From positions 1-26,330 of IMG/VR virus record IMGVR_UViG_3300035698_027111: a DNA stretch of 26,330 nt, one strand, 5' to 3'. The position numbers were made by a program, and so were the translations under genes. The first letter of the stretch is position 1. Each line of letters begins with the position of its first letter. The notes beneath the pieces were generated by a model, which worked only from the letters and a program-made list of their open reading frames with translations, ran no database searches and was not told where the DNA came from. The DNA is from a virus. Below, one piece after another: positions 1,809 to 21,132 of the stretch.

Positions 1809-2015
1809 ATGGTGAAAATACACAAATATAAAATAAGAAAATTAACTACTTCTACAATGCATAAAGATTATTTTGGGATAACAATTCCAAATAAGATAGC
1901 AACACAATTCTCAGGCACTACATTTTCAGTCACTCAAGATGGTGACCAAATCATATTGAAATCTGGAGCTGATTGCAATATCAGAACTCCTAACTTTGAG
2001 GTATTACCAAAATGA
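1809..2015 (+). CDS. AbrB/SpoVT-like small DNA-binding regulator (68 aa)
   Basis: The 68-aa product has a basic N-terminus followed by a stretch (YFGITIPNKIATQF, then FSVTQDGDQIILK) that matches the swapped-hairpin beta fold of AbrB/MazE-type DNA-binding proteins: a beta strand ending in TIP, a short helix, then two strands around a Gly turn. Such proteins are common archaeal and viral regulators that bind AT-rich operators as dimers. It is the first gene of the glycan operon and lies directly beside three palindromic boxes, so autoregulation there is a reasonable guess. There is no Shine-Dalgarno, consistent with a short-leader mRNA. Its stop overlaps the next start by 4 nt (ATGA). Confidence 0.6.
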   Translation: MVKIHKYKIRKLTTSTMHKDYFGITIPNKIATQFSGTTFSVTQDGDQIILKSGADCNIRTPNFEVLPK

Positions 2016-3232
2016 AAATAATGTGGTTGAGTGATAGCTGTTTTACTATTACAGGATACAGCACAATCAGTTGGAACATATTAAATGGACTTGCAAATGC
2101 AGGTCATGAATGTCATTTATTGGCACATAATTATGTTGGTCAAGACCAGCCACCTGGAAATAAAATTGTAGATACACCACCATTTAATTTCTGGATACAC
2201 GGCACAGGTAACAAACCATACATGCAAGACAGGATAGAAGCATTGTTAAGGAAGCATAAGCCAGATATTTTTTGTGTATTGCTAGATACTTTCATGTTAT
2301 ATCCATGGTTTAATCAGCTAGATTTAGCACCTGCAAAGACAATATTTTATTTTCCATCTGATGGTGGAGGAGGGATGCCACTCAATTGTGATACCATATT
2401 AAAAAAAGTTAATGTTCCTGTTGCTATGGCTAAGTTTGGGCAAGAGCAAGTATTAAAGATGCATGGTATCAAATCAATGTATATACCACACGCTGTAGAC
2501 ACCAACAACTATAAACCTTTAGCAAATAAAGAACAGTTAAAAGCCAAGTATGGCCTTCAAGGGAAGTTTATATTTGGGACTGTTGCACGTAACCAAGGAA
2601 GAAAAATGCTTGATAGAACTATAAAAGCATTTACCAAATTTGCTCCTACTGCACCAAATGCTTTATTATTCTTACATTGTGACCCAACAGATGGAGCAGC
2701 TGTATTTCCTATAATGGATTTAATCAATAGACTTAAGATTAGAAATAGAGTTGTATTCAGTGGTATGCAAGCCTTTGATGGATTCACATATGAAAAAATG
2801 AATGAAATATATAACTTAATGGATTGTCATTTATTGACCACAAGTGGTGAAGGATTTGGTGTACCAACTATTGAAGCTGCTGCTTGTGGAATCCCCTCAA
2901 TTGTAACTGATTATACTACCACTAGAGAATTAATTGTTAATAATGGACAATGTGGTTTACCAGTTAAACTTGTTGGCACAAATAATAATGTTGAAGTACA
3001 CAATGATGAAATATTGAATGGAACCATAACAGGAAGTTGGATGGTTGAAAGAGGTGTCATGGATATTGATGATTGTGTAAAGCAAATGTCGAAGATTTAT
3101 AATGATGCTGAGCTGAGAGAAAAATTAAGCAAAGCTGGTGTCAAGAAAGTTGAAAAATACTATTCATGGAAAAAAGTTATCCCACAATGGGAAAAATTAA
3201 TGGAAGATATGGCAAATGGTAGCAGTCAATAA
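2012..3232 (+). CDS. Glycosyltransferase family 4 (GT-B fold, 406 aa)
   Basis: The enzyme would transfer a sugar from a nucleotide donor with retention, in the cytosol. The N-terminal Rossmann domain opens with a short strand and a Gly/Ser-rich loop (TGYSTISWN) typical of the acceptor side. The C-terminal domain begins near residue 186 and carries the donor-binding basic pair (R193, K198 in ARNQGRK). It also has the GT4 E-x7-E motif (E280/E288 in GEGFGVPTIE) followed by an AxACG turn. Full length for the family at 406 aa. It overlaps its upstream regulator by 4 nt and its downstream neighbour by 17 nt, placing it firmly in the operon. Donor and acceptor cannot be read from sequence. Confidence 0.88.
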   Translation: MKIMWLSDSCFTITGYSTISWNILNGLANAGHECHLLAHNYVGQDQPPGNKIVDTPPFNFWIHGTGNKPYMQDRIEALLRKHKPDIFCVLLDTFMLYPWFNQLDLAPAKTIFYFPSDGGGGMPLNCDTILKKVNVPVAMAKFGQEQVLKMHGIKSMYIPHAVDTNNYKPLANKEQLKAKYGLQGKFIFGTVARNQGRKMLDRTIKAFTKFAPTAPNALLFLHCDPTDGAAVFPIMDLINRLKIRNRVVFSGMQAFDGFTYEKMNEIYNLMDCHLLTTSGEGFGVPTIEAAACGIPSIVTDYTTTRELIVNNGQCGLPVKLVGTNNNVEVHNDEILNGTITGSWMVERGVMDIDDCVKQMSKIYNDAELREKLSKAGVKKVEKYYSWKKVIPQWEKLMEDMANGSSQ

Positions 3233-3482
3233 AATTAAAAGTAATAATGAAATACAAGCTCTCATAGGAGTTTTAAAACTGAAAGGAGTCAATGCAGGAA
3301 TTTTACTTGTTGATGGATTTGGTTCTATACTCTTTGGAACTCAAAATGATAAATTAGGATTAATAGAAGCAGCTAAAACAGAAGAAGAATATTTCAAATT
3401 GATGAGACAAAAAAAAGCATTAGATTTTATTTATGACAATCCAGATGAAAATAAAACAGAGAAACAAGATTACATGGGATGA
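3216..3482 (+). CDS. Hypothetical small protein in glycan operon (88 aa)
   Basis: The 88-aa frame starts inside the end of the GT4 gene (17-nt overlap). Its N-terminal half alternates hydrophobic and small residues (IQALIGVLKLKGVNAGILLV), then GFGSILFG, as in an alpha/beta domain with a small hydrophobic core. The C-terminal half is charged and helical. I do not recognise a family, and no catalytic motif is visible. Its place between a glycosyltransferase and a nucleotidyltransferase suggests an accessory part in the same pathway, but that rests on context only. Confidence 0.6.
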   Translation: MVAVNKIKSNNEIQALIGVLKLKGVNAGILLVDGFGSILFGTQNDKLGLIEAAKTEEEYFKLMRQKKALDFIYDNPDENKTEKQDYMG

Positions 3483-3488
3483 TTAACA

Positions 3489-3932
3489 ATGGAAAGTATA
3501 GCATTATCAGGTGGATTTGACCCATTACATAATGGGCATATTAATTTATTCAAAGCAGCAAGAAAAATTGTTGGTAAAGATGGCAAAGTAATTGTTATAC
3601 TTAACAACGACCACTGGCTGAAAAAAGAGAAAGGACATGTTTTTCAAGATGAAAAATTAAGAGCAACAATACTAAATGAATTAAAAAGTATTGATTGGGT
3701 CTTGACTACAAGACATACAAAAGATGATAAAGATTTTTCTGTTTGTAAAGAATTAGAACAATTGATGCCAGATTATTTTGGCAATGGTGGAAACAAAAGT
3801 TATAGTAATGTTCCTGAAGTAGAATTATGCAACAAATTAAAAATAAAAATGATATGGAGTCTTGGGGATGAGAAAGAAAATAGTCCTCAAGAGTTAATGG
3901 AAAATGCGAATAGTTTTAATAAATCCGAATGA
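3489..3932 (+). CDS. HxGH cytidylyl/adenylyltransferase-like enzyme (147 aa)
   Basis: The protein opens with SGGFDPLHNGHINLF. This is the GxFDxxHxGH signature of the nucleotidyltransferase family that includes glycerol-3-phosphate cytidylyltransferase and the RfaE/HldE adenylyltransferase domain; the HNGH residues are 14-17. Further on, PDYFGNGGNKS aligns with the PDxFxNGGD segment of these enzymes and SYSNVPEVELC with the NxPEVExC stretch. The C-terminal serine-rich triphosphate motif (ISSS type) is degenerate (ENSPQELM), so activity is likely but not assured. It would activate a sugar- or polyol-phosphate as a nucleotide donor for the neighbouring glycosyltransferases. The 3' end overlaps the radical SAM gene by 29 nt. 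Confidence 0.82.
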   Translation: MESIALSGGFDPLHNGHINLFKAARKIVGKDGKVIVILNNDHWLKKEKGHVFQDEKLRATILNELKSIDWVLTTRHTKDDKDFSVCKELEQLMPDYFGNGGNKSYSNVPEVELCNKLKIKMIWSLGDEKENSPQELMENANSFNKSE

Positions 3933-5160
3933 AAGAGAAATATTACAGCATGCAGGAGATAGAGTTCCATTAGGAATTTTATTCATAGCAGGTTACTTAG
4001 AAAAATTAGGTCATGAAGTTAAAATATTTGATTTGAATCATGAGCCATTAAATAATTGTATAAATTATTTGCACAAATACAAACCAGATTTTGCTGGTAT
4101 TAGTTTCACAACTCCTATGTATAAAAAAGTAATGGAGCTTGCAAAATATATAAGTGCTAGGACAAATGATAGTGTAAAACTTATTGCTGGTGGTAGTCAT
4201 CCAAGTGCTGACCCAGATAGCTGTACTAAGGATTTTGATTATGTTATTGTTGGTGAAGGTGAAACTGGATTTAAAGAACTATTTGAAATAAAAGATAGTA
4301 TGGATAAAATTAAAATTAAAGATTGGAAGACAAGAATGACTGGTGGTATTGTAACTGGTCCACAAATAAAAGAACTAGACTATCTACCACACCCAGCATA
4401 TCACTTAATTGATATGAATAATTATAATATGATTCAAAATGATAAAAGAACTGCAACATTAATTACTTCACGAGGATGTAATGGTCATTGTGTTTATTGC
4501 TCTAGGAAATCATTAGGTCAAGGAGTTAGAATGCATTGTCCTGATTATGTATATGATGAAGTGTTCCACATGGTAGATACTTATGGATTTAGAAGTTTTT
4601 ATTTCTTAGATGATATGTTTACTTATGACAAGCAAAGGGTAATAGACATCTGTAATAAAATAAAAGGACTACACATTAAATTCAGGTGTACAACTAGAGC
4701 TGATTGTGTTGATTATGATTTATTAAAAGTAATGAAAGATTCAGGACTAGAAACTATCAGTATTGGAATTGAACATGCTGACAATGAAGTATTAAAGAAA
4801 TGTGCTAAGGGAATGACTATTGAACAAAACGAACAAGTCATCAAATGGTGCAATCAATTAGGAATTAAAGTGAAAGGTTTCTTTATAATTAATTTACCAG
4901 GAGCAACTAAAGAAACTGCTATGAAAACAATTAAATGGATTCAAAATCAACAGCTAGATTCAGCTGACCTATATCCATTGACTGCATTTCCTGGTTGTAC
5001 ATTGTGGGAACATTATGAAAAATTAGGGATGCGGTTATTGGATGACTCTTATGAATATGTATTAGCAGGAGATGGTTTGAAAGTTAATATAGATAGCAAA
5101 GAATTTCCTAAAGAAGAAGTATTAGAGGTGCTTAAACATTGGCAGAAGATAAAAAATTAA
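3904..5160 (+). CDS. B12-binding-domain radical SAM enzyme (418 aa)
   Basis: Residues 1-130 form a Rossmann-like cobalamin-binding-type domain (start VLINPNE, then VPLGILFIAGYLE, GISFTTP, IAGGSHPSADP and VIVGEGE). The radical SAM core follows with the 4Fe-4S motif CxxxCxxC at C192/C196/C199 in SRGCNGHCVYC, and later IGIEHADNEVL and FFIINLPGATKET. This order is that of class B radical SAM methylases and their relatives such as BchE- and hopanoid-type enzymes. The domain lacks the DxHxxG cobalamin-ligating histidine, as many members do. Likely role: methylation or rearrangement at an unactivated carbon of the sugar, lipid or glycan handled by this operon. Neighbours overlap on both sides. Confidence 0.88.
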   Translation: MRIVLINPNEREILQHAGDRVPLGILFIAGYLEKLGHEVKIFDLNHEPLNNCINYLHKYKPDFAGISFTTPMYKKVMELAKYISARTNDSVKLIAGGSHPSADPDSCTKDFDYVIVGEGETGFKELFEIKDSMDKIKIKDWKTRMTGGIVTGPQIKELDYLPHPAYHLIDMNNYNMIQNDKRTATLITSRGCNGHCVYCSRKSLGQGVRMHCPDYVYDEVFHMVDTYGFRSFYFLDDMFTYDKQRVIDICNKIKGLHIKFRCTTRADCVDYDLLKVMKDSGLETISIGIEHADNEVLKKCAKGMTIEQNEQVIKWCNQLGIKVKGFFIINLPGATKETAMKTIKWIQNQQLDSADLYPLTAFPGCTLWEHYEKLGMRLLDDSYEYVLAGDGLKVNIDSKEFPKEEVLEVLKHWQKIKN

Positions 5161-6440
5161 TAATATGTTACATCTTAGAAAATGATGAAGATGTTTTCCC
5201 TCTTAGTTATAATAGCATATATGATATTGCTGATGAGATTATTGTTGTGTGGAGTCATGGGGTATATAATACTACACCACGTCTTGATTTCTTGTTCCAT
5301 TATAATATCAAAGATGAAGATGGAAAAGTTAAAATTATTGAAAAAGATTATGAACATGCTTACAAAGGTGCCAATGGCAAACAAAGAATTGTTTATTTAG
5401 ATTATCTTAAGAAACATTTTTTAGATGATTGGTGTCTTGTTGTAGATGCTGATGAAATATTACAAATAGAAAAAACAAAAAAACAATTGTTATTTTTCTT
5501 AGAAGAGAAAGCACATTATGGTACTCAAATATTTAGCCCACACATGCGACATGTTATGTATGCTATAAATAGAGAAGACACTTTCCAGAAAGAACATTGG
5601 TGCTTATGTAGAATGTTCAAAGTAACAGAGGATTTATTTTATAAAGAAGTTGAACATCCTGTTCTTCAGAGCAAACAGGAAAAACATATGGAGAATTTAA
5701 ATGTATTAACACTTTGGCACTTTGCTTATGCTAGAGAATTATTTAGGACTAGAAAAAAATATCTTAATCATGTGAAAAAATCTAATATACATTCTTTAGA
5801 ATTTTTAGAATGGTGGTATCATAGACATTTGTTAAATGAATTCACAAATGAAAAATTTGATATTGAAGAGTATCCTAACATAATAAAAGACTTTTTTAAT
5901 TTAGATAAACTTAAACAAGAATTATATTTTGGTAATAGAAAAGCAGAAATCAAACATGTTGAGATGGTCAAACAATGGAATGAATATTTCATACCAAGAA
6001 CTGTATTTGATTTAGGATGTGGTCGTGGTCCTTTCTTAAGATATTGGGAAATGTGTGGACATCATTGTAAAGGTTTAGAGATATCTAGTTGGGCAATTGG
6101 TCATAAGATATGCAACACAGAAATAACTCATGGAGATATCTGTGATAAAACTAATTTTAAAGAGGAGTATGACTTGGTTACTGCTGTTGATATATTAGAA
6201 CATTTAGAATATAAACAACTGGATAAGGCTTTAAAAAACATGTCTAGTGTTACATACACACATGCTTTATTTAGTATTCCATTCAAAGGAGATAAGAATC
6301 TTGAAGCAGACCCAACTCACATCATTAAAGAAAGCAAAGAATGGTGGCTTAAAAAAATATCTAAATACTTCAAAATAATACCAACACCAGAACATTTCTA
6401 TTTCAAAGGACAAATAATAATAGGTGAAAAAATAAAGTGA
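5139..6440 (+). CDS. GT2 glycosyltransferase fused to SAM methyltransferase (433 aa)
   Basis: The gene starts at TTG 5139: GAGGTG at 5125-5130 is 8 nt upstream and no ATG is near in this frame. Residues about 5-200 resemble the GT2-like family that has an ADEIIVVW strand and a VVDADEI motif (D103/D105, the DxD metal/donor site). Residues about 285-430 are a class I SAM methyltransferase with motif I VFDLGCGRG (about 289-297), an acidic end of strand 2 (GLEIS) and DILEHL. A single chain could therefore add a sugar and methylate the product. It overlaps the radical SAM gene by 22 nt and the next methyltransferase by 4 nt. Confidence 0.85.
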   Translation: MAEDKKLIICYILENDEDVFPLSYNSIYDIADEIIVVWSHGVYNTTPRLDFLFHYNIKDEDGKVKIIEKDYEHAYKGANGKQRIVYLDYLKKHFLDDWCLVVDADEILQIEKTKKQLLFFLEEKAHYGTQIFSPHMRHVMYAINREDTFQKEHWCLCRMFKVTEDLFYKEVEHPVLQSKQEKHMENLNVLTLWHFAYARELFRTRKKYLNHVKKSNIHSLEFLEWWYHRHLLNEFTNEKFDIEEYPNIIKDFFNLDKLKQELYFGNRKAEIKHVEMVKQWNEYFIPRTVFDLGCGRGPFLRYWEMCGHHCKGLEISSWAIGHKICNTEITHGDICDKTNFKEEYDLVTAVDILEHLEYKQLDKALKNMSSVTYTHALFSIPFKGDKNLEADPTHIIKESKEWWLKKISKYFKIIPTPEHFYFKGQIIIGEKIK

Positions 6441-6949
6441 AAACTCATAGAGGAGTAACAAGACAAGCATTGGATAAATTCCTTAAAGAACATGAAGGAA
6501 AAATAAACACCGTATTAGAATTAGGATGTGGTGCTGAACATTTCAAAAAATATTTTCAAGAAAAAAATATAGATTGGACTGGTATGGATTTATACAGATG
6601 TGCCAATGATGTTATACGAGGAGACTTCCACAACATACCTTTTTTGACTGATACATTTGATTTAATTTTCAGCTGTCATAGTTTCGAACATGGTGTTTCA
6701 CCAGTAAGAGCTTTGAATGAAATGCAAAGAGCTACTAGCAAATATATTTTCATATCAACACCTTATCATTGCAAATATCAAATATTGGAAGCAGATGAAG
6801 ACCATATTTTTTGTTTAACAGATATGCAAATGGAAAGATTATTTAGATTCTGTAACATAAAAAAAATAGATATTTTTACTGAGAAAGAAGAAGGAGAAAC
6901 CAATGAACAATTTTGGTGTTTGATAAGTATAGGTGAAATAAATGACTGA
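6437..6949 (+). CDS. Class I SAM-dependent methyltransferase (170 aa)
   Basis: GTG 6437 overlaps the previous stop in a GTGA coupling. The compact methyltransferase has motif I VLELGCGAEHF (residues about 26-36), an acidic residue after strand 2 (GMDLY), the IPF/FDLIFSCHSFEH stretch equivalent to the UbiE/Methyltransf_11 motif, and a later FISTPYH strand. The SFEH sequence is characteristic of the sugar- and polyketide-type methyltransferases of this superfamily. At 170 aa it lacks an added substrate domain. With the adjacent GT2-methyltransferase it suggests more than one methyl group on the final glycan. A small-molecule or protein target cannot be excluded. Confidence 0.83.
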   Translation: MKTHRGVTRQALDKFLKEHEGKINTVLELGCGAEHFKKYFQEKNIDWTGMDLYRCANDVIRGDFHNIPFLTDTFDLIFSCHSFEHGVSPVRALNEMQRATSKYIFISTPYHCKYQILEADEDHIFCLTDMQMERLFRFCNIKKIDIFTEKEEGETNEQFWCLISIGEIND

Positions 6950-7090
6950 AGAACAAATTTTAAATGAGTTAATTGAAATAAAAAACGATTGGGTTGGATA
7001 GTAGCTGGGATATGGATTCCATTCTTACTGGGTTTAGGATTACTAGGCTTATGGATATTTTTGTATTTCCTTGCAATCGGGATGAGTTAA
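6942..7090 (+). CDS. Small membrane protein encoded across a -1 slippery site (49 aa)
   Basis: ATG 6942, with AGGTGA at 6930-6935, opens a frame of 19 codons ending at TAG 6999. Inside it lies a perfect heptamer A_AAA_AAC (6980-6986) in the correct phase for -1 slippage. Shifting there gives a 49-aa product ending at TAA 7088-7090. It has a charged amphipathic helix (MTEEQILNELIEIKN), then RLGWIV and a strongly hydrophobic membrane segment (IPFLLGLGLLGLWIFLYFLA). The join makes a natural small membrane protein, whereas neither frame alone does. Two explanations fit: programmed frameshifting, or a one-base indel in the A6 run (sequencing error or mutation). It lies between two methyltransferase genes. 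Confidence 0.55.
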
Positions 7091-7091
7091 A

Positions 7092-7763
7092 ATGGAAATG
7101 AAAAGTGATGAAGAGTTTTGGCACAACACACATACATTGAAACAAGCTTTTAGGAAAATAATACACAACAGTGCTGATTTTGAAGAGTTCAATAAAGATA
7201 CTGAAAGAGATTGTAAATATATATTAAACAATTTAAACATTCAAAAAGAGGATACTGTCATGGAATTTGGTTGTGGCATAGGAAGGTTGATGGCTCCTTT
7301 GTCTAAATATTGCAAACAAATAGTTGGTGTAGATGTTAGTGCTAATATACTGGCACAAGCAGAAATATATTTAGGTAATTTCAAAGATTTGAATAGTATA
7401 ATACAATTAACTGAAATGCCAAATGCACATACTATTCCGTTAGAAGATAATACATTTGATAGAATATATAGTTTCATCGTACTGCAACACATCCCAAAAT
7501 ATTATGTTTTTGCAAATCTAGTTGAATTAGGAAGAGTGTTAAAGTCTGGTGGTAAAATATTATTACAATTTCCAGATTTGAGAAAACAGAAACAACACTT
7601 CTTAACACATGTTAGATATAGAACACAAATGACAATTTCATCTGCTAGGATGTATTATTATTTGAAAGAAGAATTAAAAGTATGGTTTTCAATGTTACAA
7701 TTTAAAGATGTAGAAATATATGAAAAGGATGGTGTTGATTTATGGGTGAAAGCAACAAAATAA
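7092..7763 (+). CDS. Class I SAM-dependent methyltransferase (223 aa)
   Basis: The N-terminal 50 residues are a helical lid (FWHNTHTLKQAF). They are followed by motif I VMEFGCGIGRL (about 56-66), the post-I acidic residue in VGVDVS, and a FDRIYSFIVLQHIP segment matching post-II/III of the Methyltransf_11/25 group. A GRVLKSGGKILLQFP motif follows, in which the LKxGG turn is diagnostic for that superfamily. The C-terminus adds helices that may bind substrate. This is the third methyltransferase domain in the operon. The 3' end overlaps the next GT2 gene by 22 nt. The methyl acceptor is unknown; by context it is likely a sugar hydroxyl or carboxyl. Confidence 0.85.
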   Translation: MEMKSDEEFWHNTHTLKQAFRKIIHNSADFEEFNKDTERDCKYILNNLNIQKEDTVMEFGCGIGRLMAPLSKYCKQIVGVDVSANILAQAEIYLGNFKDLNSIIQLTEMPNAHTIPLEDNTFDRIYSFIVLQHIPKYYVFANLVELGRVLKSGGKILLQFPDLRKQKQHFLTHVRYRTQMTISSARMYYYLKEELKVWFSMLQFKDVEIYEKDGVDLWVKATK

Positions 7764-8572
7764 ACAAAATGGAAAGAACAACAATACATATATGCACAAG
7801 AGATAGACATTCTGAATTAGCTTTATTGCTACAAAGTTTAAGAACTCAATACTATCAAGAATTTGATATCCTAATATTAGATGATGCGAGTGGAAGTCCA
7901 ATTACTAATTGTGAATTCCTTATGAAAATTATTAATAGATTGATGCTAGAAAATCATAAGGTTAAACTCATAAGAAACAATACAAGTAATGGAGTGGCAA
8001 GAGCAAGAAACATGTTAATAGACAAAGACGATTTTGACAATCCTCTTACTTGTAGATTGGATGATGATTGCATTTTAGAACAAAATTATTTAGAATTTCT
8101 TAAAGGTGTTATTGATAATAATTATGATATAGCAACTGGAGTTATTCCTAACATTGATGCTCCTGAAATAATAAGAAAAGTTGAATGTGTTGAGCCTGTC
8201 ATAAGTAGAATTGATATTAATGATAAAGGTGAACCAATTTATATAGGAGATGACTTAGGATATTGTTATGATGAACATTTACAGTTACCAACTCATCATT
8301 TCAGAACTAATGCTATGTACAAATCAAAAATAAAACTTAAATATGAAGACAAGTTATCTAAAATTGGATTCAGAGAAGAATCAATTTGGTCTTTAAGAGC
8401 TATAATGCAAGGATATAAAATAGGTTGTAGCACATTTGCCAAAGCTTATCATTTAAGGTCAAGCTCTGGGGGGTGTAGAGCTGCTAATTATGCTGAGTGT
8501 GTTCAATTAGATGAAGATACATTTAGGAAATTTATCAAGAAAAATAAAAATGAAATACTTTCAAAAATTTAA
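7742..8572 (+). CDS. Glycosyltransferase family 2 (GT-A fold, 276 aa)
   Basis: The typical GT2 layout is present. The first strand ends in ICTRDR near residue 20, ILILDDAS (D47/D48) is the nucleotide-binding aspartate site, NTSNGVARARNM matches the GxxxARN helix, and LDDDC (D107-D109) is the DxD metal/donor motif. The acceptor part contains HFRTNAMYK and GFREESIWSLRAIMQGY, in which the FREE acid pair resembles the ED(V/T)-type catalytic base region. An alternative ATG at 7769 would shorten the N-terminus by nine residues with all motifs intact. It is inverting by family. It would extend or decorate the glycan made by neighbouring enzymes. Confidence 0.87.
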   Translation: MGESNKINKMERTTIHICTRDRHSELALLLQSLRTQYYQEFDILILDDASGSPITNCEFLMKIINRLMLENHKVKLIRNNTSNGVARARNMLIDKDDFDNPLTCRLDDDCILEQNYLEFLKGVIDNNYDIATGVIPNIDAPEIIRKVECVEPVISRIDINDKGEPIYIGDDLGYCYDEHLQLPTHHFRTNAMYKSKIKLKYEDKLSKIGFREESIWSLRAIMQGYKIGCSTFAKAYHLRSSSGGCRAANYAECVQLDEDTFRKFIKKNKNEILSKI

Positions 8573-8705
8573 AAAGGTAAATACACCATTGAAAGATATG
8601 GTGAAAAGAAAATGCACTGGGTGTGGAAAGATGGCTAAGATTGCTAAGAGTAGTTTTGATTATCATTTATGTAAAGAATGTTATGGTAAAAATGGAAAAA
8701 ATTAA
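8550..8705 (+). CDS. Small zinc-finger protein in glycan operon (51 aa)
   Basis: ATG 8550 is preferred over in-frame ATG 8511, which lies deeper in the GT2 gene. The 51-aa product is lysine-rich and carries CTGC and, about 18 residues later, LCKEC: two CxxC knuckles forming a treble-clef or ribbon-like zinc site. It overlaps the GT2 gene by 23 nt and the following GT4 gene by 14 nt. It resembles the miniature cysteine-motif proteins at 4-665 in size and style but not in clear sequence. Function unknown; the basic charge allows nucleic-acid binding. Confidence 0.55.
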   Translation: MKYFQKFKKVNTPLKDMVKRKCTGCGKMAKIAKSSFDYHLCKECYGKNGKN

Positions 8706-9786
8706 TATAATGGGAAATTTTTTTGGTACAAGTGGTTACAATATACATACAAAATGTTTGGCTAATGCCTTATATACACAGACAAGTGAAGTAAGAATAG
8801 ATTCAACCAAACATCCCAATTGGGAATTCAATACTACTGATGCTGAATTCAATATGCTAACTAAAGATTTTGATATAGAAGCAACAACCATAATGATATC
8901 AACTCCACCTTTTTGGAGATTTGGACTTATGCAAAACCCTAAGAAGTTTGCTGGCTGGGTTATTTGGGAAGGAGATAAGATACCTGAATACTGGATTGAA
9001 TATTTGATAGATAAAAAAGTTGATTATATATTTGTACCAAGCAACCATGTTGAAAATGCTATTAAAAATACATGTGATTCTTTGACTTGGAATAAATTAA
9101 TTGAACCAAAACTTCATATAATTCCACATGGTGTAGATATCAATAAATATAAATCATTCCCTAGATGTGACTGTGAAAAATTTACTTTTGTTTGCAATAA
9201 AGGATGGAGAGGAGATGGAGAAGATAGAGGTGGAATACAATATTTATTGAAAGCTTTTAATGAAGAATTCACAAAAGAAGAAGAGGTGCAATTGATAGTC
9301 AAATTAAATCCTGCTTACATGCCACAAAATTTAGAGGTGGCTATGAAGAATTTAAACATTGAAAACAAAGGTAACATAAGAATAATAACTGATAACATGA
9401 CTGTCAAACAACTCTGTGATTTCTATAACATGGGTGATGTATTTGTAAGTACCACTAGAGGTGAAGCTTTCAACATTCCAGGTCTTGAAGCAATGGCTTG
9501 TGGTTTACCTAACATACAGACTCAATTTGGTGGACAAATGCAATACATGACAACAGATAATAGTTTATATATTCCAGGTTTTGATTTGGTAGAGGTTAAA
9601 CATGACATACAATATGAAGGAATTAAATGGTTACAGCCTAACATTAATAAGATAAGAAAAATATTGAGACATGCATTTAAAGAACAAGACATGATGAAAG
9701 AAAAAGGAGAACAAGCTGAAAAAGATGCACAGAAGTTTACTTGGAATAATAGTGCAAAAAAAATAATAAAAATAATAAAAAATTAA
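8692..9786 (+). CDS. Glycosyltransferase family 4 (GT-B fold, 364 aa)
   Basis: The start at 8692 (MEKINIMGNF) removes an N-terminal stretch that is only the zinc-finger gene read in another frame. The acceptor domain opens with a Gly loop (GTSGYNIHT), and the linker carries IIPHGVDI, a hallmark of GT4 (HxGVD). The donor domain has a KGWRGDGEDRGG strand/loop and the E-x7-E motif E258/E266 in RGEAFNIPGLE followed by AMACG. It is the second GT4 of the cassette and differs strongly from the one at 2012, so the two probably make different linkages. It is the last gene of the plus-strand operon; its stop overlaps the stop of the convergent gene. Confidence 0.87.
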   Translation: MEKINIMGNFFGTSGYNIHTKCLANALYTQTSEVRIDSTKHPNWEFNTTDAEFNMLTKDFDIEATTIMISTPPFWRFGLMQNPKKFAGWVIWEGDKIPEYWIEYLIDKKVDYIFVPSNHVENAIKNTCDSLTWNKLIEPKLHIIPHGVDINKYKSFPRCDCEKFTFVCNKGWRGDGEDRGGIQYLLKAFNEEFTKEEEVQLIVKLNPAYMPQNLEVAMKNLNIENKGNIRIITDNMTVKQLCDFYNMGDVFVSTTRGEAFNIPGLEAMACGLPNIQTQFGGQMQYMTTDNSLYIPGFDLVEVKHDIQYEGIKWLQPNINKIRKILRHAFKEQDMMKEKGEQAEKDAQKFTWNNSAKKIIKIIKN

Positions 9787-9790
9787 AATT
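9756..9790 (-). terminator. T-rich terminator of the virion/lysis operon
   Basis: Read on the minus strand, the 35 bases after the stop of the last structural-block gene are almost all T with scattered A (runs of 8, 5 and 6 T). Archaeal RNA polymerase terminates on such oligo-T tracts without a hairpin. The tract is the poly-Lys/Ile 3' end of the convergent GT4 gene, so its composition could also reflect coding. Confidence 0.35.
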
Positions 9791-10118
9791 TAACTTTAGT
9801 TTGACAATCTAAAAAGTAAGCTGCAACTGATGGATTATAAAATTTGAATACATCTTTTGCACAATACATTTGTTTCTTGGCTCGTTCTACACTCTTATTA
9901 TTTATTGTTGTCTTGATTTCTTCAATGCCAAGTTTTGGTGTTTTATATATTTTCAAAATATCTAATTCACCTTCGACAACAGGAGCAACAGAATGGTCAA
10001 AATATTGGATGTTGTAAGCCACTGCAAGTATATGATATTTCTCTTCTTTCCAAATTTGTTTTATTCTATCTTGAATTCCTTTGTTATGTATTCCTCTTGC
10101 TTTGTCACATCTAACCAT
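9783..10118 (-). CDS. Miniature PD-(D/E)XK nuclease-like protein (111 aa)
   Basis: The 111-aa product shows the order expected of the PD-(D/E)XK core. An N-terminal helix with acidic residues (IKQIWKEE) comes first, then a beta-hairpin with GELDIL (D53), a strand with GIEEIKT (E67-x-K69), and a helix with a polar Gln (KKQMYCAKD, Q83), as in RecB/Cas4-type nucleases. The length is close to the minimum for this fold, with no added domains. AAGGT precedes ATG 10118. It is the last gene of the virion/lysis block, so it may act late in DNA processing or host DNA degradation. Assignment is by motif pattern only. Confidence 0.5.
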   Translation of the reverse strand: MVRCDKARGIHNKGIQDRIKQIWKEEKYHILAVAYNIQYFDHSVAPVVEGELDILKIYKTPKLGIEEIKTTINNKSVERAKKQMYCAKDVFKFYNPSVAAYFLDCQTKVKF

Positions 10119-10304
10119 TTACCTTAATTCCCATGTCATAGCTTGTTTGGTAACTGCTCTTAAAATAATGTTGAATACTCCTGCAGCTGTCATTGCAATC
10201 CCAGCTGTAAGTTGGTCACTAACAACTGACATTATCCCAATCAATATTGCTAGAACATTCATCCAAAATACTTTACTGTGATAAAACTTTTTTACTTCTA
10301 CCAT
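10119..10304 (-). CDS. Holin-like small membrane protein (61 aa)
   Basis: Start 10304 is chosen for its GAGGTG site (10311-10316) six bases upstream; longer in-frame starts lack one. The 61-aa product has a short basic N-terminus (KKFYHSKVFW), then two hydrophobic segments (MNVLAILIGIMSVV and ATAAGVFNIILRA-like region) separated by a short polar turn, and a basic/polar tail. This small two-span layout with an N-terminal charged stretch and a central NIILR motif is common among phage holin-like proteins. With the TM/coiled-coil protein and the peptidase-like protein upstream it forms a plausible lysis cassette. Confidence 0.55.
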   Translation of the reverse strand: MVEVKKFYHSKVFWMNVLAILIGIMSVVSDQLTAGIAMTAAGVFNIILRAVTKQAMTWELR

Positions 10305-10327
10305 GTTATACACCTCACTCATTATTT

Positions 10328-10645
10328 TCATTTTGTTTTCAATAATTCTTTTACATCTGATTTGATTATATTCAAATCTTGATTTATTGTGTCTAATCTT
10401 TCATTCAGAATAGCTGAATTTCTTTCATTATCTGAAATTTGATTATTCATTTCTTTTATTATTTCCTGCTGATGGGGTATCCCTTCATCTAAAATCTTTT
10501 CCATGTTTTCTACTCTATTAGTAAGCTGAGCATATCCAAATACAAATGAACTTAATAATACAAGTAATGTTATCACTAAACTCATAATTGCAAAAGGTTT
10601 ACTAATAAGATATCCACCATTCCCATCTGAACTAAAATGCTTCAT
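10328..10645 (-). CDS. Single-TM coiled-coil protein, lysis-cassette type (105 aa)
   Basis: The protein has a short cytosolic N-terminus, one membrane segment at about residues 18-42 (IMSLVITLLVLLSSFVFGYA), and then a long heptad-patterned region (NRVENMEKILDEG, NNQISDNERN, LDTINQDLNIIKSDVKELL) ending in LLKTK. This is the reverse of XhlA-type holin partners, in which the coiled coil precedes the membrane helix, but it suits a membrane-anchored coiled coil such as a spanin- or pinholin-associated factor. GAGGTG lies before ATG 10645. Function is inferred from its neighbours. A structural or pore-associated role is equally possible. Confidence 0.5.
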   Translation of the reverse strand: MKHFSSDGNGGYLISKPFAIMSLVITLLVLLSSFVFGYAQLTNRVENMEKILDEGIPHQQEIIKEMNNQISDNERNSAILNERLDTINQDLNIIKSDVKELLKTK

Positions 10646-10648
10646 GTC

Positions 10649-11086
10649 TTACACCTCTATGTAATATGGTATCATACCATTATCTTCTAATCTAAATATC
10701 AAATTGTTTTGTGGCTCAACTGCTTTCAATTGACCAAAGATATTAACAAAGCAATTTAAAGCATGTTTACTACCATCACTCCTAATAACATGCACTCTGC
10801 CAAATGAATGTCTGCCATTGAACAAACTAACGAGTCCAATTAAAACACGTGAATAATCTTCACAATCAAATACTTCTTTTTTATATTTAATGAATCTGAA
10901 TATGTTAAGCTTAAGAAATTTTTCTAATTCTCCTTGCTCTATTAACCATTTCTTATTGTCTGTTATTTCTACATAAGCATTTTTATATTTTCTTCTTAAT
11001 GTATTTTTCATTGTGCTGTTACTCATGTAAGTATCTTCTGTGAAATAATAATTTCTGAATATCCATCTAAATATTTTTATTAACAT
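10649..11086 (-). CDS. Transglutaminase/papain-like cysteine peptidase candidate (145 aa)
   Basis: ATG 11086 has GGAGGAG directly upstream, better than in-frame ATG 11098. The key feature is FDCEDYS (C75, E76, D77) at the start of a helix, then SDGSKHALNCFV (H108, with the small-residue pattern of a catalytic His strand) and AVEPQNN (E124). A DCED helix, an H-A strand and an acidic residue in the next strand is the usual order in transglutaminase-like cysteine peptidases of phages. The N-terminus is aromatic and basic. It is first in a cassette with two small membrane proteins, so it may cleave the host cell wall or a surface protein at exit. This is not a classical lysozyme. Confidence 0.45.
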   Translation of the reverse strand: MLIKIFRWIFRNYYFTEDTYMSNSTMKNTLRRKYKNAYVEITDNKKWLIEQGELEKFLKLNIFRFIKYKKEVFDCEDYSRVLIGLVSLFNGRHSFGRVHVIRSDGSKHALNCFVNIFGQLKAVEPQNNLIFRLEDNGMIPYYIEV

Positions 11087-11098
11087 TTTCTCCTCCAT

Positions 11099-11887
11099 CT
11101 ATATTGTATCAAAATCACTATGTCTAACATCATCAAAATAAAAATAAACATGACCACCACCATCTGCTTCATATTGTGTAACAAATCTTATTTGAGGACC
11201 ATTACTTAATGTTTCATCTGTTAATTCTTTTATGCCATTAACATACACATCATAGACATCACCACCTTTAGCAACAACAAACAAAGCTATACTACCAGTA
11301 TATGTATCTTCACTTCCAGTAGATATTGATTTTACAGAAGTATAACCATCAGTATCATTACCAATATATATAGTAATAGAAAAAACTTCAGAAGAAACAT
11401 CATTCATATCAAAATATCCTCTACACCAACTATTTCTATTTTTAGGCAATGTCTTAGAAGTTACTGTAACAACTTGATTATAGTCATCACCACCACCATA
11501 ATTCTTAGATGGGGAAATCATTTTAAGTTCATTTGTAGTGCCACCAGCAAGTTGTGTATTACTTACTAATGCTGTACCAGCAGGACCTCCTTGTCCTTCA
11601 TCTGTAGAGGTAACATCCCATAAAGTTGAATTAGGTACATCTCCTCCTGATTGACCATCAAAATTATCATAGACTGTATAGTAACTTGGATTGGTAAAAA
11701 ATAATTGATTTCCTCCCACTCCTAACCATTGTGTACCATTGTGATAATACATCTTACTACTACCAGGATTATAATACATCAAACCAGTAGCTGGAGTTGG
11801 TACTGCTCCACTTTCAAATGTCATTGTAGTTGGTTTAAAATTATTTAAACTTCCTGCTGGGTATATTGAACCATTATAATATGTCAT
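11099..11887 (-). CDS. Tail-tip/receptor-binding protein with lectin-like beta domain (262 aa)
   Basis: The N-terminal 60 residues carry a short motif (GLMYYNPGSSKMYYHNGTQW) also found in the adjacent 60-aa protein. From about residue 70 the sequence is Gly/Ser/Thr/Asn-rich and beta-stranded, with NFDGQSGG, TLWDVTST, RGYFDMNDVSSE, IYIGNDTDG, VNGIKEL and HVYFYFDDVRHSDF. The strand order and the closing FYFDDV resemble concanavalin A-like lectin/glucanase sandwiches in phage receptor-binding proteins. It is the last of the tail-tip genes before the lysis cassette. Likely role: host-surface glycan binding; enzymatic activity is not evident. Confidence 0.5.
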   Translation of the reverse strand: MTYYNGSIYPAGSLNNFKPTTMTFESGAVPTPATGLMYYNPGSSKMYYHNGTQWLGVGGNQLFFTNPSYYTVYDNFDGQSGGDVPNSTLWDVTSTDEGQGGPAGTALVSNTQLAGGTTNELKMISPSKNYGGGDDYNQVVTVTSKTLPKNRNSWCRGYFDMNDVSSEVFSITIYIGNDTDGYTSVKSISTGSEDTYTGSIALFVVAKGGDVYDVYVNGIKELTDETLSNGPQIRFVTQYEADGGGHVYFYFDDVRHSDFDTI

Positions 11888-11893
11888 TTTCTT

Positions 11894-12076
11894 TCACCAT
11901 AAATTTATCCATTCTGTTCCATTGTAATATTTATAGCAACTAGCACCTGAATCATAATAATGCAAAGCTTCTACACTTCCTGGTGCTGCTATCTCATCAC
12001 ATTTAAGGCTATTGTAAGTTCCATCATTCAACCATTCTGCCATAGGTCTTGAACCATTGTCCCAACTTACTGTCAT
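11894..12076 (-). CDS. Small tail-tip protein with YYNGT motif (60 aa)
   Basis: Start 12076 (MTVSWDNGSR) has a GAGG site upstream, inside the end of the previous gene. The 60-aa product is almost wholly one module: WDNGSRPMAEWLNDGTYN, then ALHYYDSGASCYKYYNGTEW. The latter matches a segment at the N-terminus of the next gene's product, where tyrosine pairs and NGT/QW recur. Such hYY-x-NG-x-W modules occur in fibre-attachment and collar-like proteins. It probably forms a small trimeric or clamp-like tail-tip piece. The gap to the next gene is 6 bases. Confidence 0.5.
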   Translation of the reverse strand: MTVSWDNGSRPMAEWLNDGTYNSLKCDEIAAPGSVEALHYYDSGASCYKYYNGTEWINLW

Positions 12077-12077
12077 A

Positions 12078-12437
12078 TTAAAAAACCTCAAATATTATTT
12101 CAACTTCTAATTCAATTGTACCATCAAATTCAACTGATGGGAAAGCTTCTCTATCCCAAACTGTTCCACCAGACACTTCACTTGATACTGCAACTTCTCT
12201 TAATAATAATCCACTCATATCAATTGAGCTAAATGCTGCTGAATATGCTATTTTTTTTGCAGTTGATATATCAAATCCAGTAGCAGCAATTTCTTTCCTA
12301 TCAGTTTCAGCAACTAATCCTGTTTGCCCAACTGCAAAAGTTCCACTTCCACTTCCTATTGCAAGATATCCAGGTCTAGTTCCACTTGGACCCATTAATA
12401 ATGCATTCCCTGATTTACCTGAATCTGTGACACCCAT
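12078..12437 (-). CDS. Tail-tip/fibre-associated protein (119 aa)
   Basis: Start 12437 follows a GGAGGAG site and lies one base after the hub gene's stop. The first half is Gly/Ser-rich (GPSGTRPGYLAIGSGSGTF), followed by AVGQTGLVAETDRKEI and a second half with strands (IAYSAAFSS, LLLREVAVSS, TIELEVEIIFEVF) and a VWDREAFPSVEFDG turn. This matches the general pattern of short phage tail-fibre and upper-baseplate proteins in which a GxTxL..ETxR segment precedes a beta domain. Position between the hub and small tip proteins supports a tail-end location. No enzymatic motif is present. Confidence 0.55.
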   Translation of the reverse strand: MGVTDSGKSGNALLMGPSGTRPGYLAIGSGSGTFAVGQTGLVAETDRKEIAATGFDISTAKKIAYSAAFSSIDMSGLLLREVAVSSEVSGGTVWDREAFPSVEFDGTIELEVEIIFEVF

Positions 12438-12438
12438 A

Positions 12439-14004
12439 TTATTCTCCTCCTGAACGAACAACCACTGCTCCACTTTTATTATTTCCAACAAGTGGTTGTA
12501 ATGAACCAGCTCCAACTGAGCCTATTATGCCATTGATAGGATGACCTATCACCCATGAATTATTTATCTCAACTGTTTTGATTTTCCAATTTGAAACTTT
12601 CAGACCCATGCTACCAGTTGAACTTTGTAATCTTGTAAATATATCTGTATTCAATAATTCATTAGATTGTAATCTTCTTAAGTCAAGCAATATTTGTTTG
12701 ATAGTATCTGTTACATCTGGTATCTTCTCTGAAACTTTAACATCTAATACTTCATAAGCAAGATTTTTTCTTTTAGTGAAATTGTAAGTTGCTTCTAATA
12801 TTTTATATATTTTTGAAGAAACATTTTGATTTGGGAAATTACAAACAGCAGTATTTCCTGGTGTGACATCACTAATATTTCTAATCCTAGATAATATCCC
12901 AAGAACTTTAGCATCTTTATTCTGTGACAAAAATTTCCTTGCTTTTGTTTTAGCAAACAATGGGTCTTTAATACTTTTGTCCATAATAACTTTACTTCTT
13001 ATTCCATATGCTTCTTGACTATCTATGTCCTCTGCAAATTTAATAATAGGAGTATCTCTATCATATGCAGCAAATATATCATCTCCACTTGTTGGAAGAT
13101 TATCACCTGCATCAGTACCAGATGTGAAAATAATATTGGCAGAATCAAAATTAACTAAATATTGTATGCCAGAAGGTGGTGCACTTTCTACAAGCTCAAA
13201 AATACCACCTTGCTGAATTGAACCATTGACTGTAATTTCAGTATTGTGAGGTTGAAAATCTAATGTAAATTCACTACCAGCACCATCTGCTACAAAATCA
13301 TTTTCCCATTTAGTCAAAACCCTATCTCCATAAACCCAAATTCTATTTGAAACATTCCTATCTGATTCTTTAAAGATTGCTGTTTTAGTATTTGAATTGT
13401 CAAAAATAATGCCACTACTGATAGAATCTTTTGTTTCAAAATGCAAATCTTTATCAACATCAATATAGAATATAAAACCAGCAAGCTCTGCTAATTCTTG
13501 CATAACATCAAACAAAGTTCTTTGATTGATTCTAAATGAAGTAAGTGTAACCCCTGTTGGATTAACATTTGTTATTGTTATTTCTGGAAGATAATTAACC
13601 ATAAGATTTTCAACTATTACAGAAATTTCATCATCATTATAAACAGTTGGTGGAATTGTTATGTCTTGCATTCTAGCTGTATAATCTCTTCCTTCAATAA
13701 CTATAACTGAATTTCCTCTGCTGTCTTCTCTAGTTCTTATCTCTTCAATTATACCTAAAAATATTTTATTCTCCCAACTATCATCTTCTAAATCTATATA
13801 AGGATTAGAAATAGAAGTTGAATGTACTTCAATCTCACCATTGATGCTAAGACTATCTAAATTAATTCCACAATTATTATTAATGGTAGCATTGAATCTA
13901 CTAGAAGTATTGTTTTCACCAATGGCTGCTTTGACTTGAGCATTATCAATATCTGTAATAGTAACATCATCTAATTTTATTACACAATAATTAGCATCAC
14001 CCAT
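12439..14004 (-). CDS. Tail hub/baseplate protein, Tal/gp27-like (521 aa)
   Basis: This large beta-rich protein follows the tape measure gene directly, overlapping by one base (TAATG). The N-terminal 250 residues read as two hub-like barrels (YCVIKLDDVTITDIDN, LSINGEIEVH, IFLGIIEEIRTRED, VIVIEGRDYTARM), then a helical linker (RTLFDVMQELAELAGFIFYID). The segment VIEGRDYTARM followed by a helix and FYIDVDKDLHF is typical of hub proteins related to T4 gp27 and siphovirus Tal. The C-terminal part after residue 400 is Asn/Ser-rich with helical and fibre-like segments. It should close the tail tube and carry the tip proteins encoded downstream. Confidence 0.65.
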   Translation of the reverse strand: MGDANYCVIKLDDVTITDIDNAQVKAAIGENNTSSRFNATINNNCGINLDSLSINGEIEVHSTSISNPYIDLEDDSWENKIFLGIIEEIRTREDSRGNSVIVIEGRDYTARMQDITIPPTVYNDDEISVIVENLMVNYLPEITITNVNPTGVTLTSFRINQRTLFDVMQELAELAGFIFYIDVDKDLHFETKDSISSGIIFDNSNTKTAIFKESDRNVSNRIWVYGDRVLTKWENDFVADGAGSEFTLDFQPHNTEITVNGSIQQGGIFELVESAPPSGIQYLVNFDSANIIFTSGTDAGDNLPTSGDDIFAAYDRDTPIIKFAEDIDSQEAYGIRSKVIMDKSIKDPLFAKTKARKFLSQNKDAKVLGILSRIRNISDVTPGNTAVCNFPNQNVSSKIYKILEATYNFTKRKNLAYEVLDVKVSEKIPDVTDTIKQILLDLRRLQSNELLNTDIFTRLQSSTGSMGLKVSNWKIKTVEINNSWVIGHPINGIIGSVGAGSLQPLVGNNKSGAVVVRSGGE

Positions 14005-15497
14005 TAATAAGTCACCATGTCATTTAATTTACTTTGTAAAGCTTCAGCAATGTCATCTTCATTAACACCACTAATTGTACCAATGTTTATAACTGTTGCT
14101 TTTGAGTTGTCATTTGAAACTGAACCTGTTGGTTCAACACCAAACATTTCTGCAACTTTTCCAAGTGCAACTACCTTACCACTTTTAATTTTTTCTCTTG
14201 CTCTATTAAATTCTTTTGCACCACCAAACTTACCAACAAGTTGAGCTTGTGCACTTCTTACTGCATCAAGCCTTTCTCTCTCTTCTTTTAATTGAAAATT
14301 AAGTTTGGCATGTTCATCAGTTTGTATCTTTACCCATTTAATAGTATCTTCTCTTTGAGCAACATCTTGTGATGCTGCTTTTCTTAATTGAAACAATACA
14401 TTTGTTTCTCCCATAAATTTACCTGTTAATTTATCTATTTCTGTCCCCATTACACTGGTAGACATTTTAATTCTTTCTTGTTCACCAACTAATTCACTTA
14501 AATCTTCATCTAAGTTTGAAACCATTTCATCAAAATCACCAAGTGCAAATGAGGTTTCTGTAATAGATTTACCTAAGTCACCACCAATTGCTTCTCCTAA
14601 TTTACCTAAAAGATTTATAGATTCTTTTGTTTTCTTATTTAAATTTTCATCTTCTGATTTGGATAATCTATCTACACTGTCAGCAATAGAATTAATAGCA
14701 TCATGCAAATCTAAAATATTTTCAACATGTTCTGCTATTTTACCTGTATTTTCAGATAAGGTTTGACCAAATTCAGTTGAGAAATTTTTCCATCTTGCTT
14801 GTAATGATTGAATAGATTCTTTAGTAGTATCCATAGCACCACCCATGTTTTCCATATTAGAAGTTCCAATTTCAATCACCGCATTAGTTACAGCTTGTTT
14901 CTTTTCTAAATCAGTTAATTCAGAAGTGGCTTTGTTTATACTAATTGCATATTTTTCATATGCTTCTTCCATATTTAAAATAATACCTAAATTATCTAAG
15001 ATTAATTTGGATTGTCTTCCAATACCAGTTGCTATATCATTAAAAGCAGTAGTAACATCTGTTCCCATTGCTTGTGCAGCAGCCCTAGCAATTTCCATCA
15101 TTTGTGGCAAAGCCTCTTTGTCTACACCTAATAACATTGCTCTGTTAGCAGCTTGAATTGCATCTATCTCAGCAACTGTACCAGCTGAAGCTTTTTTAAT
15201 TGAAGCAAGTAAGTTAGGTGCTGCAGTTCCTGCAAGTTTATTGAATGCATTTTCAAGACCTTCCATTTGCATTCCTAATTGAATAGATTCTTGTGTGAAA
15301 TTTTTCACAGCAAATATAACAGAACCAGCAATAGCTGCACCACCGATGGCTCCTACTAATCCTCTCATGCTAGTAGTTAATCCACCAACTTCTTTCTTGG
15401 TATTTCCAAATTTCTTTTTCATACCATTTAAATCTTTTTGCAACTGTTTGGTATCAGCTCTAATTTCAACAAGTAATTTTCCTATTTTTTGTGTCAT
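14004..15497 (-). CDS. Tape measure protein (497 aa)
   Basis: The N-terminus (KLLVEIRADTKQLQKDLNGM) is the classic start of tail tape measure proteins (VEIxADxxxLxK.L). A Gly/Ala hydrophobic segment (GLVGAIGGAAIAGSVIFA, about 46-63) and the conserved FNKLAGTA...SAGTVAEIDAIQAANRAMLLGV...GTDVTTAFNDIATGIGR domain follow. The C-terminal half is helical and charged. At about 1.5 Å per residue of helix, 497 aa suggests a short tail of roughly 70-75 nm (estimate). The start overlaps the stop of the frameshift extension of the chaperone gene, as expected for siphoviruses. Confidence 0.88.
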   Translation of the reverse strand: MTQKIGKLLVEIRADTKQLQKDLNGMKKKFGNTKKEVGGLTTSMRGLVGAIGGAAIAGSVIFAVKNFTQESIQLGMQMEGLENAFNKLAGTAAPNLLASIKKASAGTVAEIDAIQAANRAMLLGVDKEALPQMMEIARAAAQAMGTDVTTAFNDIATGIGRQSKLILDNLGIILNMEEAYEKYAISINKATSELTDLEKKQAVTNAVIEIGTSNMENMGGAMDTTKESIQSLQARWKNFSTEFGQTLSENTGKIAEHVENILDLHDAINSIADSVDRLSKSEDENLNKKTKESINLLGKLGEAIGGDLGKSITETSFALGDFDEMVSNLDEDLSELVGEQERIKMSTSVMGTEIDKLTGKFMGETNVLFQLRKAASQDVAQREDTIKWVKIQTDEHAKLNFQLKEERERLDAVRSAQAQLVGKFGGAKEFNRAREKIKSGKVVALGKVAEMFGVEPTGSVSNDNSKATVINIGTISGVNEDDIAEALQSKLNDMVTY

Positions 15498-15700
15498 CTT
15501 GTAGACCTTTTTGAATTATTCAAAGCTTTTTGTCTGGCATTATCAGCATTATTTTTTTTAATAAGCCATTGTACATCTTCCCAACTTAAAGTATCTATGT
15601 AATCTAGTGTCCAATTAAATGTTTTAACTAGCCACCATCTGACTTTGTTTCTGTAATCTATTGCTTCGGAAAATCTGTATCTTTTTTCTTCTTTTGTTTT
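15494..15700 (-). CDS. -1 frameshift extension of the tail assembly chaperone (T-like ORF)
   Basis: The frame is open from just after a TAA at 15701-15703 to TGA at 15494-15496 and contains no ATG or other good start. It encodes a Trp/Asn/Lys-rich helical segment (RWWLVKTFNWTLDYIDTLSW, EDVQWLIKKNN), the kind of sequence found in the second half of gpGT-type tail assembly chaperones. It is in the -1 phase relative to the 85-aa gene before it and ends overlapping the tape measure ATG. Slippage in the AAG AAA AAA GAT run (about 15682-15690) would give a chaperone of about 140 aa. This position between tail tube and tape measure is where siphoviruses carry such a frameshift. Confidence 0.75.
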   Translation of the reverse strand, partial: KTKEEKRYRFSEAIDYRNKVRWWLVKTFNWTLDYIDTLSWEDVQWLIKKNNADNARQKALNNSKRSTR

Positions 15701-15915: not shown

Positions 15916-15919
15916 TTAA

Positions 15920-16900: not shown

Positions 16901-16909
16901 GTATATCAC

Positions 16910-17359: not shown

Positions 17360-17400
17360 GTTCAACCTCGCTTGGTTTAGTTTCAATCACTCGCTTGTGA

Positions 17401-18321: not shown

Positions 18322-18323
18322 TT

Positions 18324-18704: not shown

Positions 18705-18709
18705 TATGT

Positions 18710-19078: not shown

Positions 19079-19118
19079 ATTATCCTCCTTATCGAAAACC
19101 ATGCACTTTGGCGTGGAT

Positions 19119-19146
19119 ATAAAAATAAAAAAATAAAAAATGTTAT
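19119..19146 (-). terminator. T-rich tract after second decoration gene
   Basis: Immediately after the stop of the 175-aa gene the minus strand reads T6, A, T7, A, T5 and further T/A. Oligo-T tracts without a hairpin terminate archaeal RNA polymerase. The next gene has its own AAGGAGG site, and read-through or a new promoter would be needed for it. Confidence 0.4.
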
Positions 19147-19674: not shown

Positions 19675-19766
19675 AATTAATTCACCTCATTGCTTATCGA
19701 GGACGCATTTAAAATAAAGCCCTCACAAAAACACGCACAACACGAGACATTTTCTCAAATTGTGTT

Positions 19767-19797: not shown

Positions 19798-19804
19798 TAC
19801 AACT

Positions 19805-20665: not shown

Positions 20666-20675
20666 TCTTTTTCAC

Positions 20676-21122: not shown

Positions 21123-21132
21123 CTTTCTTCAC

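Follow-up and report, generated by a model that had tools for sequence, protein, structure and literature searches.

Virus-encoded glycosylation and the cassette of this window

Capsid glycosylation in chloroviruses is carried out in the cytoplasm by soluble viral enzymes, and a protein joining a glycosyltransferase (GT) to a methyltransferase is thought to finish the glycan (PMC5408694). Tailed viruses with their own GTs include the mycobacteriophages Che8, Corndog, and Myrna, whose capsid and tail-tube proteins are glycosylated (PMC12363180, PMC11256854), while in the cyanophages P-SSM2 and S-SSM7 the lipopolysaccharide (LPS) clusters bring together many sugar-nucleotide and GT genes on a viral genome (PMC3037559). 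Little has been learned about the viruses of DPANN archaea, or about how these ultra-small, gene-poor archaea and their viruses interact at the surface; two Woesearchaeales tailed proviruses have been published, in a text from which the string "glycosyl" is absent (PMC11705971). Here we analyze a gene cassette at positions 1809 to 9786 of a 26,330-bp IMG/VR fragment (record IMGVR_UViG_3300035698_027111, hereafter the window), with domains called through Pfam, NCBIfam, and PHROGs. A literature search, whose range did not include most subscription journals, turned up no description of a cassette of this kind in DPANN viruses.

We read the cassette as a modular locus that assembles a short methylated glycan on virion proteins in the cytoplasm, carried by a family of tailed viruses that infect archaea, probably of the DPANN group, and we assign this reading a probability of roughly 0.58. 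A preliminary description of the window had proposed that a tailed virus, probably infecting an archaeon, carries a glycan pathway with methylation steps and a B12-type radical SAM enzyme, a proposal that our analysis supports, and the four GT domains, three methyltransferase domains, nucleotidyltransferase (NTase), and B12 radical SAM enzyme that it listed were all found by the domain searches. In the pathway that we infer, from virion target and step order to sugar identity and catalytic roles, the HldE2-like NTase would activate a host-derived sugar-1-phosphate, with a heptose-like sugar as the best guess, and the soluble core enzymes GT4a, GT2-MT, GT2b, and GT4b would add sugars sequentially onto tail or capsid proteins, with GT2-MT as the strongest candidate for initiating the chain on protein and for methylating it. 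The radical SAM enzyme may C-methylate or otherwise remodel the sugar or its precursor, and the methyltransferases MT2 and MT3 would cap the glycan. The observations behind this scheme are the domains of the genes, their conservation and modularity, their linkage to virion genes, and the absence of detectable membrane or lipid-carrier machinery.

Conserved ends around an exchangeable interior

The cassette recurs in dozens of related viral contigs. At least 292 relatives were returned by a capsid profile scan, 60 viral contigs (50 of them analyzed) were matched by a GT4a profile scan, and capsid and radical SAM genes co-occur in two further contigs identified by independent searches. Across the 28 complete cassettes compared, each running from GT4a to GT4b (two near-identical pairs among them would, if counted once, reduce the total to 26), every one has GT2b and 26 have the GT2-MT fusion, while length varies from 4.1 to 11.0 kb and 20 distinct labelled interiors occur. 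The cassette consists of conserved ends (AbrB-GT4a on one side, GT2b-GT4b on the other) and the GT2-MT fusion, placed around an interchangeable interior.

The interiors of relatives carry B12 and SPASM radical SAM enzymes, epimerases, UDP-sugar dehydrogenase (UGD), enzymes of the GDP-mannose-dehydratase type (GMD), transketolase and E1 halves, GHMP or PfkB kinases with an NTase, pyruvyltransferase, cupins, and methyltransferases. They hold fuller sugar-nucleotide pathways than the window, combining, for example, kinase, NTase, and epimerase; in the relative G016, a PfkB kinase, an NTase, and an epimerase adjoin one another in an arrangement resembling the ADP-heptose route. The window itself encodes a single NTase, and sugar kinases, isomerases, and epimerases are missing from it, so the earlier wording of a complete activation-transfer-methylation set was too strong.

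Linkage to virion genes is constant in position. In each of the 19 loci where late genes are also present, the cassette sits at that distal end of the tail module which carries hub/g145; it is downstream in the same orientation in 13 and convergent in 6, and the median distance to hub/g145 is 2.8 kb. Pairwise identities of capsid and core GTs are correlated by Mantel test (GT4a r=0.50, p=0.014; GT2-MT p=0.009; GT2b p=0.019) in a comparison of nine genomes with modest power, and radical SAM identity tracks neither the capsid (r=-0.08) nor GT4a. Since the core GTs follow the capsid and the radical SAM enzyme does not, the core was apparently passed down together with the virion genes, and the interior apparently exchanged.

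The relative G001 measures 57,358 bp with a 127-bp terminal repeat, and its cassette spans the contig ends, from which a complete, circular or permuted genome follows; a 99-bp terminal repeat was found in G017. A ClpP-like serine protease gene also lies inside the G001 cassette (L041:1189-1746).

Glycosyltransferases and methyltransferases of the cassette

All cassette genes of the window lie on the plus strand. The left bookend, GT4a (2012..3232), is a GT-B glycosyltransferase matching PF00534 (E=3.5e-16) and, at full length, phrog_2170 (E=1.1e-36), and its profile matches the homologous chlorovirus GT4 enzyme B736L (3oy2), again at full length (E=1.1e-12). Homologues of GT4a occur in unrelated phages. 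Synechococcus S-CBS4, Pontimonas phiPsal1, and Tetrasphaera TJE1 carry one (24-27% identity, 67-98% coverage) beside a methyltransferase, inside the run of head genes or adjoining it. In S-CBS4 and phiPsal1 it stands among virion genes with a second GT, and in TJE1 it precedes the terminase, accompanied by an NTase and an epimerase. In Mae-JY09 it adjoins the capsid gene. The right bookend, GT4b (8692..9786), is likewise a GT-B enzyme (PF13692, 1.7e-11; phrog_2170, 2.6e-27), whose start is probably the ATG at 8692, giving 364 aa and matching most relatives, rather than the mechanical open reading frame (ORF) start at 8623. GT2b (7742..8572; PF00535, 6.6e-13), a GT2 enzyme, is the next-to-last conserved gene.

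GT2-MT (5139..6440), the conserved core enzyme in which a GT2 domain (PF13704) is fused to a methyltransferase domain (PF13489), keeps its DxDE and GxG motifs invariant in relatives. Its GT domain has its best PDB profile match in GmaR (E=1.7e-14), a flagellin glycosyltransferase, and by fold, using Foldseek, resembles the SunS/ThuS peptide S-glycosyltransferases; these enzymes act on proteins or peptides. The Che8 GT (Q855A2) is among the fold matches (E=1e-8), at a low template-modelling score (TM) of 0.24. A relationship to chlorovirus A064R was considered and rejected, as the PDB matches include no A064R structure. The other two methyltransferases are class I enzymes, MT2 (6437..6949; PF13489/PF08241), with a 35% full-length relative in the G017 cassette, and MT3 (7092..7763; PF08241, 4e-16).

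A hydropathy scan of 165 cassette ORFs of relatives detected no multi-spanning membrane enzyme, giving only isolated matches (one 54-aa ORF with two), and no multi-transmembrane enzyme was found in the cassettes to serve as the flippase and polymerase, or the transporter, of a Wzx/Wzy or ABC-type O-antigen locus. The families of the lipid-carrier transferase AglH (PF00953) and the oligosaccharyltransferase AglB (PF21436) are absent from nine viral records, while both were found in two DPANN genomes, one of them the putative host. Judged by its gene content, the cassette is not an archaeal Agl N-glycosylation locus, which would possess AglB and an AglH-type initiator.

The host

A capsid profile run against 84,980 species genomes matched a single Pacearchaeota metagenome-assembled genome (MAG), which also contains a 61-kb contig with tail genes and a full cassette. 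Further genomes of this class have contigs with distant capsids (~25%), and the closest isolate capsid belongs to Halogranum HGTV-1. In the 82.9-kb contig of a cassette-bearing relative (L250), ARAGORN identified 20 tRNA genes (L250:2861-6206), among them a 71-nt tRNA-Tyr bearing a C1-G72 pair. Such a pair marks tRNA-Tyr of the archaeal or eukaryal type, whereas the bacterial counterpart shows G1-C72 and a long variable arm. Two over-long Rfam tRNA matches in L250 (110-121 nt) are consistent with archaeal introns. An archaeal host is well supported, and a DPANN archaeon, which rests on binning, is likely.

The relatives G001 (L041:15696-18863) and G003 (L049:12333-16478) encode a bacterial-type DNA polymerase III alpha (DnaE with a PHP domain; phrog_405, E<1e-250), odd for an archaeal virus, with a ThyX gene adjoining DnaE in G001. 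The bacterial host hinted at by DnaE is outweighed by the archaeal-type tRNAs, the Pacearchaeota binning, and the archaeal-virus relative of the capsid. Other host signals were uninformative: CRISPR-spacer-like matches of the window, sought in 378 genomes of the DPANN class, were unusable, 251 genomes giving short AT-rich matches near noise level, and tetranucleotide similarity between virus and MAG contigs (0.94-0.96) is consistent with the assignment and uninformative in AT-rich genomes. A sigma-70 promoter scan gave no excess over shuffles. In the same class, L165 (G312:C2) and L166 (G240:C6) are provirus-like regions with portal and/or protease genes and two tandem distant capsid-like genes. 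No GT4a relative at E<1e-50 was found in the 377 other genomes of the MAG's class.

The radical SAM enzyme and the nucleotidyltransferase

The radical SAM gene (3904..5160) combines PF02310 (5e-21) with PF04055 (1.5e-22). The predicted N-terminal B12-binding domain, followed by a SAM core with the CX3CX2C motif, places the enzyme in class B, the cobalamin-dependent type, and the cysteines of the motif are invariant among relatives. An AlphaFold model with a predicted local distance difference test (pLDDT) score of 91 was matched by Foldseek to AprD4 (top), OxsB, TsrM, MgmA, CysS, and TokK. The B12 domain is intact, and OxsB, MgmA, and TsrM align there too, whereas AprD4, a sugar 1,2-diol dehydratase, aligns at the sequence level to the core only; for this reason, B12-dependent C-methylation of a sugar or precursor appears more likely than AprD4-like deoxygenation, with both activities compatible with a sugar substrate. 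In G002 (G002:20002-21268, L262), the gene is divided into two overlapping frames, a B12 part and a SAM part, through a frameshift, a real split, or a sequencing error.

Cellular relatives of the enzyme at E<1e-50 occur in 63 of the 378 genomes of the MAG's class. The three closest comprise one in G375, within a surface-glycan locus with PfkB, an HldE2-like NTase, a HAD phosphatase, GT9, AglH, and AglB; one in G281, adjoining a phosphoenolpyruvate (PEP)-mutase/NTase fusion and NeuB; and one in G310, amid NeuB-like and epimerase genes. The DPANN locus G281:C24 (L194:11422-12741 and neighbours), where the radical SAM relative stands beside the PEP-mutase/cytidylyltransferase fusion and a thiamine pyrophosphate enzyme resembling phosphonopyruvate decarboxylase, could possibly specify a phosphonate-decorated surface glycan with B12-dependent methylation.

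The NTase (3489..3932) is cytidylyltransferase-like (PF01467, 2e-10; phrog_7878, 2e-19; PDB 3glv, 1e-4) and contains a GGFDPLHNGH motif. It is nearest to HldE/RfaE domain II, and its predicted role is donor activation. Identification as HldE itself was rejected, for the TIGR02199 score of 48.6 bits (E=7e-13) lies below the equivalog cutoff of 181.5 bits, making the enzyme a relative of that domain rather than a member.

Remaining genes of the window

The cassette is headed by a small AbrB/SpoVT-like DNA-binding protein (1809..2015), assigned by eye with no Pfam or NCBIfam match, whose homologues start the cassette in many relatives (G001, 54%; G003, G014, G016, and G017). An 88-aa ORF (3216..3482) is 25% similar to an ORF of the G001 cassette, and a small zinc-ribbon-like ORF with a CxxC...CxxC pattern (8511..8705), between GT2b and GT4b, overlaps the annotated GT4b start. 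Most cassette genes overlap by 4-29 bp, with gaps of 142 bp between MT2 and MT3 and of 50-119 bp before GT4b, so the single overlapping operon of the preliminary description comes close without holding strictly.

Facing the cassette, a virion module recognized through PHROGs occupies 9783..26329 on the minus strand and contains, besides small late genes, the hub (12439-14004), tape measure (14004-15497), tail tube (15920-16909), capsid (19805-20665), and protease (21469-22065), together with a large transmembrane-anchored protein of the g776 type (22289-24619) and a fibre (24623-26329).

What the glycan may be built on

The constant placement at the tail module, core GTs that are kept across varied interiors and mostly track the capsid, sugar-nucleotide genes in other interiors, the absence of detected membrane enzymes, the phage GT4a homologues among virion genes, the GmaR/SunS/ThuS-like GT domain, and the B736L match all support a virion target, and the best reading of these data is that the cassette works like virus-encoded virion glycosylation. 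Several points weigh against it. The interior genes resemble DPANN surface-glycan loci, which fits modification of the host surface equally well, and GT family membership is a poor predictor of the acceptor. GT4b correlates with GT4a and not significantly with the capsid, and in S-EIVl and RM378 the GT4a homologue lies away from annotated virion genes. B736L itself is without a proven acceptor, and the capsid glycans of NY-2A lack mannose (PMC9614988).

The enzymes might instead act on lipid-linked oligosaccharides or surface glycans of the host, adding or methylating sugars on an AglH-made precursor that the host flippase and AglB would then export, so that the S-layer is altered against superinfection or a secreted spike, such as the g776-type product, is glycosylated. 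This is a plausible though less likely reading: in cellular DPANN genomes, relatives of the radical SAM enzyme (38-43%) reside in loci for surface glycans that also hold AglH, AglB, heptose-type genes, or NeuB; a locus of this sort, with a radical SAM relative, is present in the Pacearchaeota MAG; and the cyanophage LPS clusters show that viruses can carry surface-type genes (PMC3037559). The g776-type protein, which begins with a membrane segment near its N-terminus, has N-X-S/T sequons above shuffles (z=2.4), and its G001 homologue (40822-44751) has 39 sequons against 23.6 expected (z=3.8); both stand beside fibre genes and could be an AglB-glycosylated spike or surface protein. With no AglB found in the viruses, these sequons would need the enzyme of the host, and the earlier hint at adhesin sequons retains weak statistical support, confined to the g776-type protein and one fibre-like protein of G001. 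Against a host-surface role stand cassettes with no detected membrane enzyme, core GTs inherited with the capsid and sited at the end of the tail module, and GT4a homologues among virion genes in phages of unrelated hosts.

Some phages glycosylate DNA, and G001 carries ThyX, yet hypermodification of viral DNA bases by glycosylation and methylation is very improbable here: the thymidylate-synthase/hydroxymethylase family (PF00303) is missing from the nine viral records in a search whose control matched, the GTs are closest to protein and polysaccharide GTs, and interiors devoted to sugar nucleotides and sugar tailoring fit base modification poorly. A Tet/JBP search (PF12851) was uninformative, returning no match in the viral records and none in its control. 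As to the three targets named by the preliminary description, virion proteins are thus the best supported, the host surface is a possible second, and DNA bases are improbable. A host glycan island joined by misassembly, or a random moron cluster, would account for interior genes that resemble host glycan genes; it is ruled out by the same bookends in dozens of independent contigs linking capsid or tail genes to the cassette, including the G001 and G017 contigs with their terminal repeats, and by the constant placement at the tail module.

If the virion is indeed the target, a viral pathway for decorating particles would include B12 radical SAM chemistry on sugars. Family-wide conserved GTs with swappable sugar chemistry suggest that glycan identity is under diversifying selection, as in bacterial O-antigens. 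A bolder and rather doubtful proposal is that the cassette is an O-antigen-like locus of DPANN viruses, giving the particle a serotype-switching coat of host-like, radical-SAM-modified glycan, with its interior exchanged with or recruited from DPANN surface-glycan clusters. Because the enzymes appear to be soluble and their genes fit into a span short enough for expression, these ideas are directly testable.

Comparison with known systems

Chlorovirus PBCV-1 shares with the cassette virus-encoded, mostly soluble cytoplasmic GTs, a protein joining GT and methyltransferase (A064R), viral sugar-nucleotide enzymes, and independence from host secretory glycosylation (PMC5408694; PMC9614988). The GT domain of A064R is fringe/GT34-like, whereas that of the cassette fusion is GT2 and nearest to GmaR/SunS; the cassette also has a radical SAM enzyme and an NTase, is compact with an exchangeable interior, and belongs to an archaeal tailed virus. 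Mycobacteriophages, as described in the papers cited, have few GT genes and no conserved-ended cassette with an NTase, a radical SAM enzyme, and sugar-nucleotide enzymes (PMC12363180, PMC11256854), and the sets of S-CBS4, phiPsal1, and TJE1, in bacterial hosts, comprise two to five genes with no radical SAM enzyme. Cyanophage LPS clusters are found only in the larger cyanophage genomes, not as a family-wide cassette beside the tail module. The DPANN cellular loci G375:C31, G013:C8, and G281:C24 share the radical SAM subfamily (32-43%), an HldE-like NTase with a kinase, GT9, and epimerases, while the G375 and G013 loci include AglH and AglB, neither of which the viruses possess. Compared with known virion glycosylation, what is new in this locus is its archaeal setting, its modular build with fixed bookends, and its B12 radical SAM chemistry.

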